A stretch of 64,000 nt of DNA from Halobellus litoreus (GTDB lineage: Archaea > Halobacteriota > Halobacteria > Halobacteriales > Haloferacaceae). The translations under genes were made by a program, and so were the position numbers. This document shows, one piece after another, positions 599-5,486 of this stretch; position 1 is the first letter of the stretch, and each line of letters begins with the position of its first letter. The stretch covers positions 682,001 to 746,000 of the forward strand of contig NZ_JANHAW010000002.1 in assembly GCF_024464595.1 (NCBI RefSeq), read 5' to 3'. The notes below the pieces were generated by a model, which worked only from the letters and a program-made list of their open reading frames with translations, had not been told where the DNA came from and ran no database searches.

Positions 599-737
599 GC
601 GATCGAGGATCGAGGGCGATCGAAGAGCGAGGACGAGTCGCGAGCGGCCGCGTGATCAGTTACGGACGATCGGTTGCGTGAATAGCTACGAACGCGACAC
701 TCTCGGTGTACGTTGTCAGAGAGAACGCGAGAACGGC

Positions 738-1092
738 GGTGTAGACCTGGACGGGAGACGTTTTCCCCGACCTACACGGCCATCTGGGTCTGCCACGCCG
801 ACTTTAGCCGGAATTTCACCGGCAGTTGCCGGAGCGTTAGCCGGGTTCCCACCGGCGTTGTCGACGTAGCGTCGCCGAATTTCACGAAGTCCGCTTGCGC
901 GTACTCCGCTAGTTGGCCTTCTCCCTCGACCGCCCGGGCGGTCGAGCGTTCGGGTCGGTGCGGTCCTCCTTCGGAACCGTAACCTCGTCGCCTTCTGACG
1001 GACACTTCGGTTGTGGCTCCCAACTCGTTCCGTCTCGCCCGCGTCCGGGTGATCTGAAACGAGTCGTCCAGTGTGTCCCCGCCTTCTCGCGG
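738..1092 (-). ncRNA. Candidate structured non-coding RNA, unidentified
   Basis: The 650-base gap between trm56 and tfe has no convincing codons but dense base pairing on the minus strand. A TATA-like TTTATTATT with A-rich upstream bases lies at about 1110-1121 (minus), predicting a start near 1088-1095. Arms 1056-1065 and 1022-1031 form a 10-bp stem; two of its pairs are G-U as minus-strand RNA but A-C mismatches as plus-strand RNA, which favours the minus strand. An outer stem (1070-1078 with 1000-1006), a 22-base palindrome (925-946), a CCGGC/GCCGG hairpin near 820-833 and a terminal stem (739-744 with 772-777) follow. I looked for conserved RNase P and SRP RNA motifs and did not find them. 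Boundaries are approximate. Confidence 0.5.
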
Positions 1093-1216
1093 GAATTATA
1101 CCTACGAGCGGGGTAATAATAAATCATTTTGAATATTGTGTGAATGTTTTCCACGAGAACAACTGACGACCGCGTCGAAATAGTTCGGAGCGGACGAGCG
1201 ACCCCGCATCCGCAAC

Positions 1217-4232: not shown

Positions 4233-4346
4233 ACCACTCAGTTCCGAGAGACAGTTCTTAAGCGTTCATACTGTGGGCAGTGAGTACCGCTCACCCGACA
4301 TCACCGCACCGGCGGGCTTTTGCGCGCCCCGCCGTTGGGTTCGCGT

Positions 4347-5486
4347 ATGCGACTCGGGTTCGTAGTAAACCCCATCGCGGGGATGGGAGGCCGCGTCGGG
4401 CTGAAGGGAACCGACGGCAAAGTCGAGGAGGCGCGCCGCCGCGGGGCGGAACCCCGCGCGCCCGACCGCGCACGGCGGGCACTCGACGCGCTCCGTGAGC
4501 AGGTCGGCGACGACGTCGGCCTGGTGACCTGGGGCGGATCGATGGGCGCAGACTTGGCTCGGGAGAGGGGGTTCGATCCCGACGTTCTCGGCGGCCCCGG
4601 TTCGGATCCGACCGTCGGGGGCGACGGCGGCGGACCAGGGGCGAGCGGCACCGGCACGGCGAGCGAACCCGTGTCGGAGACGACCGCCGAGGACACCGTC
4701 CGAGCCGTCGAGGCGTTCCTCGATGCCGAGGTCGACCTCGTCGTCTTCGTCGGCGGCGACGGCACCGCGGCGGACGTCGCAGAGGTCGTCGAGGGGAGCG
4801 AGACGCCGATCCTCGGCGTGCCCGCGGGCGTGAAGGTCTACTCGTCGGTGTTCGCCGTCTCTCCCGAGGACGCGGCGCACGTGATCGCGACGTTCGAGCG
4901 GACCGAGCGCCGCGAGGTGCTCGACATCGACGAGGACGAGTATCGGGAAGGCGAGGTCCACCCCGAACTCCGGGCGATCGCCCGCGTCCCAGTCGCAGAG
5001 GAGTTGCAGTCCTCGAAGCAACTCGGCGGCGGCAACGTCGAGGCGCTCGCGGCGGGCGTCGCCGACGACGTCCGGGAGAGCGAGAAGACGTTCGTCCTCG
5101 GCCCGGGGAGCACCGTCGGCGCGGTCAAGGAGGAACTCGGCTTCGAGGGGTCGCCGCTCGGCGTCGACGTCTGGCGCGACGGCGAGGTGCTCGCCCTCGA
5201 CGCGAGCGAGTCCGAGATTCTGGACGCGCTCGGTCCGGCCGGCGAGAACGTCGTCATCGTCTCGCCGATCGGCGGCCAGGGGTTCGTGTTCGGCCGCGGC
5301 AACCCCCAGCTCTCCCCCGCCGTGATTCGCCGCTGTGACCTCGAAATCGTCGCCTCGCGCTCGAAACTCGACACGATCGGCGAACTCCGCGTCGACACCG
5401 ACGACCCGGACCTCGACGCCGACCTCCGCGGGTGGACGAAAGTCCGCATCGGCCGCTTCGAGCGCCGGATGATGCGGATCGTGTGA
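4347..5486 (+). CDS. ATP-NAD kinase family protein (COG3199 type)
   Basis: A 379-residue protein of the NAD kinase/diacylglycerol-kinase fold. The catalytic GGDGT motif is present (VVFVGGDGTAADVAEV), preceded by the N-terminal GFVVNPIAGMGGRVGLKGTDG block that marks the COG3199/AcoX-like branch and followed by PILGVPAGVKVYSSVFA. The C-terminal half holds SPIGGQGFVFGRGNPQLSP. The likely reaction is phosphoryl transfer to NAD or a related nucleotide, but this branch is poorly characterised. A Gly/Ser/Thr-rich insert (about residues 85-115) looks like a disordered halophilic loop. The start at 4347 is chosen because the conserved block begins there. Confidence 0.8.
   Translation: MRLGFVVNPIAGMGGRVGLKGTDGKVEEARRRGAEPRAPDRARRALDALREQVGDDVGLVTWGGSMGADLARERGFDPDVLGGPGSDPTVGGDGGGPGASGTGTASEPVSETTAEDTVRAVEAFLDAEVDLVVFVGGDGTAADVAEVVEGSETPILGVPAGVKVYSSVFAVSPEDAAHVIATFERTERREVLDIDEDEYREGEVHPELRAIARVPVAEELQSSKQLGGGNVEALAAGVADDVRESEKTFVLGPGSTVGAVKEELGFEGSPLGVDVWRDGEVLALDASESEILDALGPAGENVVIVSPIGGQGFVFGRGNPQLSPAVIRRCDLEIVASRSKLDTIGELRVDTDDPDLDADLRGWTKVRIGRFERRMMRIV

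Follow-up and report, generated by a model that had tools for sequence, protein, structure and literature searches.

What occupies the noncoding gap upstream of tfe in Halobellus litoreus, and does it work with any known protein? In the window (the whole 64,000-nucleotide stretch of DNA analysed, to which plain coordinates refer) the gap lies between an upstream gene (ORF 50-598, which we take to be aTrm56) and tfe (1249-1779), and the ORF list offers no convincing coding ORF within 598-1249. The initial annotation placed a structured RNA gene on the minus strand at 738-1121. The minus strand of the gap folds with a z score of −4.0 (0 of 100 shuffles were equally good) and the plus strand with −2.4 (1 of 100), and the proposal is upheld by this fold, by homologs in relatives and by covarying helices. 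The locus was right and the extent has to be shifted, as the RNA probably runs from about 1093 to about 726, some 12 nt past 738, and the stretch 1094-1121 is promoter rather than RNA. The features, all on the minus strand, are as follows.

726 to 1093, minus strand: RNA gene, about 365 nt (predicted 5′ end near 1093, predicted 3′ end near 726)
1114 to 1123, minus strand: TATA-like element TTTATTATTA, about 32-33 nt before P1
1079 to 1091, minus strand: 5′ strand of P1, pairing with 726-739 with base 734 bulged
726 to 739, minus strand: 3′ strand of P1, pairing read from the window sequence
1065 to 1078, minus strand: 5′ strands of P2 and P3 (P2, 1078-1075 with 746-743; P3, 1071-1065 with 753-747)
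743 to 753, minus strand: 3′ strands of P2 and P3, same pairing
1023 to 1064, minus strand: P4 arm (1064-1056 with 1031-1023)
973 to 1020, minus strand: P5 arm, which includes the inner helices P5b and P5c, from covariation
754 to 969, minus strand: P6 (969-965 with 758-754), leading to the P7 module
767 to 958, minus strand: module closed by P7 (958-952 with 773-767), single copy in the window
925 to 946, minus strand: P8 hairpin, a palindrome of 22 bases
884 to 918, minus strand: 5′ strand of P9 (GGCC; 918-915 with 781-778) and P10
909-903 with 890-884 and 901-899 with 894-892, minus strand: P10, from covariation
807 to 856, minus strand: variable insert containing a pair of GCCGGUGNNANNCCGGC hairpins (856-840 and 823-807), read from sequence
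873 to 1028, minus strand: core recognised by both covariance models (R1 and R2)

When 700-1130 was used as a DNA query against 99 genomes from the family, 21 had matches; some of these are probably spurious matches to coding sequence, as L016, L020 and L022 seem to be on inspection by eye. Covariance model R1 was built from 19 sequences, window included, and scores 144.6 bits (E 1.9e-34) in its own genome, where the window is one of its training sequences. Searched with R1, 107 of 391 Halobacteria genomes and 40 of 86 genera carry the RNA, with E values down to 7e-38, and the conservation on which the initial annotation had staked its proposal is therefore present. The RNA is usually single-copy; two copies were seen in tandem in G022 (L172, 5119-5270 and 5563-5713) and at separate loci in G083, G020, G335 and G062.

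Helices P1 to P10 were derived from 54 non-redundant sequences, and as they were picked on the same, related sequences the counts given here favour the structure somewhat. In the predicted fold P1-P3 form the closing stem, P4, P5 and P6 radiate from a four-way junction, and a P7-P10 module follows. On 59 sequences 92.1% of the cells of the core are paired, against 74.1% when shuffled (0 of 500 shuffles as good) and 33-45% with partners slid; 26 of 31 core pairs change on both sides, so the covarying pairs that had been named as a refuting check do exist. Each helix of the full-length composite beats all 300 shuffles. P1, which closes the RNA at its ends, is 78% paired against 62% shuffled (0/300), and P2 and P3 are 95% paired each (0/300). 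These three covarying helices are the outer stem noticed earlier, although the 2-base bulge described there is a single base in P1 of the window. The 10-bp stem 1056-1065/1022-1031 and the 22-base palindrome of the same annotation are recovered as P4 and P8, both of which covary across relatives (P4, 138 double changes against 49 shuffled, 0/300; P8, 91% paired against 64% and 109 double changes against 29). Corresponding values are 95% paired for P5, 93% against 69% for P5c (0/300), 95% against 90% for P6 (13 double changes against 1.5; 0/300), 96% against 78% for P7 (0/300) and 92% against 75% for P10 (0/300); for P9 the column composition, judged by eye, suggests a G-C/A-U exchange. P3 can also be read from the sequence in a second archaeal class, as CUGGGUG/CACCCAG, and we take this transfer together with the slid controls to be the stronger evidence for the structure. 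With covarying helices that exceed both the shuffled and the slid controls, this is a structured noncoding RNA.

Between P9 and P10 lies an internal loop, AACUA/GAA (AAGUA in most homologs), which we assume to be loop-E-like. The insert varies in length among homologs, and hairpins like GCCGGUGNNANNCCGGC recur in L004, L006, L007 and L011; to us they recall the T-loop hairpin of cobalamin riboswitches. Genus g27 (L149, L154, L013 and L015) has six tandem P7-P10 modules spaced 113-127 nt apart. The six-module RNA is about 900 nt long. An RNase-P-like P2/P4 pseudoknot of the RNA ends was also considered and dropped, as covariation backs the nested P1-P2-P3 stack.

The ends of the RNA are marked in homologs as well. 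A TATA-like match of at least 7/8 is found in 51 of 68 homologs against 8 in a control region, and by another pattern in 44/69 against 6/69; the distances peak at −33 from P1. The TATA-like element of the initial annotation (TTTATTATTA, 1123-1114) is thus confirmed at a nearly fixed distance, and because it lies about 33 nt before P1 the transcript probably begins at P1. Apart from the window itself, 67 of the 68 homolog loci contain the 3′ end block. The RNA is presumably expressed.

Could this be a known RNA, such as RNase P RNA, SRP RNA or a tRNA-like RNA, in diverged form? Its size and complexity are comparable, and tRNA-Leu genes adjoin some homologs. Comparison with the 4227 families of Rfam 15 gave no family matching the RNA at gathering thresholds in the whole window, zero matches in 500-1500 up to E=5 and, at 13 homolog loci up to E=1, nothing that overlaps the RNA. 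The covariance search called for at the outset has come back empty over the RNA. For SRP RNA, tRNA and tmRNA (the last two also sought with ARAGORN) no match by either route overlaps it. Archaeal RNase P RNA (RF00373) likewise is a single gene for a multi-branched RNA of a few hundred nt, but its covariance model has no match in 500-1500 up to E=5, and the genome has its own, full RNase P RNA elsewhere (C2:1339051-1339542, 122.9 bits). The known-RNA reading, one of two offered earlier, can therefore hardly be credited. As for C/D box guide RNAs, Rfam offers none that matches convincingly, and this RNA is far more base-paired. A case comparable in how it works is Y RNA with Ro60, in which a structured RNA goes with a protein that handles RNA, often in genomes with an RNA ligase; protein and fold differ from those here, where Rfam again gives no match. 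A literature search found no account of the RNA, supplementary tables and subscription papers lying outside its scope, and RNA-seq lists may already contain it as an unnamed transcript. The other reading, a haloarchaeal RNA of no described class, agrees with the lack of an Rfam match, the conservation and the covarying pairs: this is a large structured RNA family of an undescribed class, absent from Rfam 15 and present in two archaeal classes. Elsewhere in the window ARAGORN called a tRNA-Arg at 5165-5255 within the long ORF 4320-5486, which has no Rfam call and is probably false.

The position upstream of tfe is true of the window and peculiar to Halobellus. Its divergent orientation in the gap upstream of tfe would suit a role as leader or regulator of that gene in cis, and an RNA of a mobile element might also be imagined. 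However, the RNA was found at only one of 80 named tfe loci, that of Halobellus inordinatus, and elsewhere homologs lie in varied, unrelated gaps with widely varying neighbours: secD-like and rnhB-like genes on either side in some (several of these gene names are our own reading), a DUF309-like and an inositol-phosphatase-like gene nearby in others, and tRNA-Leu alongside in others again. Neither conserved tfe placement nor recurrent transposase flanks were seen around the homologs, plasmid and phage collections gave no match, and there is usually one copy per genome. We consider both ideas highly improbable; a functional tie to tfe was dropped, and the tfe context is incidental.

A different partner is suggested by the neighbours in ten of the examined loci, where a PIN protein matching TIGR03875 (‘RNA ligase partner’) lies next to the RNA. 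This protein can be equated with HARP, a protein-only RNase P, because RNA-free RNase P chains of solved structure are matched by the genome's own copy (E 2.6e-38) and from the published description (PMC12153264). HARP is present in 161 of the 391 Halobacteria genomes, the RNA in 107 and both in 101; HARP is thus found in 101/107 genomes with the RNA against 60/284 without it, and only 6/230 HARP-negative genomes have the RNA. The odds ratio is 63 (p about 1e-42, ignoring the kinship of genomes), against 5.3 for the Rnl3 RNA ligase and 0.32 for rhodopsin, the last from a class sample with approximated RNA-positive members. At genus level, the only level at which phylogeny was taken into account, the RNA occurs in 39/57 HARP genera against 1/29 others (p 2e-9). 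Within Halobellus it is found in G000, G068 and G359 and HARP in the same three and G373, and the nine other Halobellus genomes listed are without either. Beyond the sample, 6 of 8 further RNA-positive genomes have HARP, and with 101/107 inside it the RNA is HARP-associated in its distribution. In the second class of the phylum all three genomes examined have the RNA and all are HARP-positive. Outside Halobacteria 3 of 39 HARP-positive genomes matched up to E=0.1, of which two are real; the weak match in G538 was discarded, being by eye within ribosomal RNA sequence, and in the remaining HARP lineages tested there the RNA was undetected. At least 12 genomes, from 8 genera, have the RNA no more than about 1 kb from HARP, divergently in some and convergently in others. 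Most genomes have the two well separated (in the window genome the RNA is on C2 and HARP on C1), which argues against simple linkage. One genome has two HARP genes (G018:C14 and G018:C10), one of which adjoins the RNA.

The exceptions were considered in both directions. Eight genomes (6 in the sample, 2 beyond) have the RNA and no HARP, and by a grouping made after the fact all but one carry deviant RNA subtypes, the exception being a single normal copy in a genome of 89% completeness. One deviant type is without the usual P5c loop (G073, G082, G339, G402 and G410) and the other has a short P5 (G135, G244 and the second copy of G354). Hidden diverged RNAs in HARP-positive genomes scored as RNA-negative were sought with R2 and the idea was rejected: 39 of the 60 genomes gave one weak copy (G168), and 20 HARP loci gave zero. 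The G168 copy (L240) looks degraded, and that genome has both HARP and ligase. On HARP-negative genomes R2 gave no convincing match, four genomes later found HARP-positive being set aside.

HARP and Rnl3 (TIGR01209) have been described as co-occurring partners by Seshadri and Gopalan (2025; PMC12153264), who suggested that HARP prepares RNAs for the ligase by trimming. As there, our evidence is co-occurrence and frequent proximity with HARP; the partner in that study is a protein, and the candidate here is an RNA that also covers ligase-free HARP genomes. Genomes with RNA and HARP number 62 with ligase and 39 without, those with HARP and no RNA 59 with ligase and one without (a genome that is 85% complete and has a partial HARP), those with RNA and no HARP 6 and those with neither RNA nor HARP 224. 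Put otherwise, the ligase is present in 59/60 HARP genomes that lack the RNA, and the RNA in 39/40 ligase-free HARP genomes. Independent losses would leave about 15 HARP genomes with neither, against the one seen, a deficit that is suggestive only, the genomes being related. Haloferax volcanii has HARP and no ligase match. Rnl3 was dropped as a primary partner of the RNA, which tracks HARP and anticorrelates with ligase within HARP genomes.

What, then, is the RNA to HARP? HARP (the homolog of Aquifex RNase P; TIGR03875; PDB 7e8j and others) binds and cuts structured RNA and has a distribution that is nearly a superset of that of the RNA; it is known as a protein-only enzyme, and the HARP literature searched describes no RNA partner. 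Archaeal HARPs are credited with specialised but unknown functions (PMC10941002), and where HARP was knocked out, in Haloferax volcanii and in Methanosarcina mazei, no growth phenotype was seen (PMC12153264). That the RNA implies HARP and HARP does not imply the RNA suggests that the RNA depends on HARP, and from these genomic patterns a functional link of some kind is very probable. We give about an even chance to a dedicated HARP partner RNA whose persistence is HARP-dependent. It would be transcribed from its own promoter-like element, starting at P1, would bind HARP, an oligomeric nuclease, in a stable complex of RNA and protein, perhaps imitating tRNA-like coaxial stems, and in the bound state would direct or restrain HARP activity. 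Direct binding seems slightly better than evenly balanced, and regulation of HARP by the RNA somewhat less probable than not. Against this reading stand the eight RNA-positive genomes without HARP, the knockouts without a growth phenotype and the 59 HARP genomes with ligase and no RNA, where HARP does not need it.

The same dependence on HARP would be expected if the RNA were a natural HARP substrate, cut for maturation or destruction and, where Rnl3 is present, circularised by it. P1 joins both ends, as circularisation requires, and trimming by HARP for the ligase has already been proposed (PMC12153264). However, a TATA-like box at −33 would set the start at P1 and leave little or no 5′ leader, which favours a bound partner or regulator over a substrate for 5′ processing, and 39 genomes have RNA and HARP with no ligase; we think this explanation unlikely. 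The RNA and HARP might instead be independent members of an accessory RNA-metabolism package of the same lineages or niches, with no direct contact between them. HARP, ligase and RNA are indeed all patchy within hypersaline lineages (see also PMC12153264), and genomes are non-independent samples, but the association holds within Halobellus and at genus level, RNA and HARP adjoin in both gene orders, and the RNA tracks HARP far better than it tracks ligase, so that this account too is improbable, and a little more so.

For HARP itself, a usually single-copy RNA that nearly requires it is a direct candidate for its working partner and a concrete handle on its role in archaea. We suggest, tentatively, that HARP in halophilic archaea may have a dedicated RNA subunit or regulator, a modular RNA with up to six repeated arms. 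If true, this would be an RNA-protein form of an enzyme named for lacking RNA.
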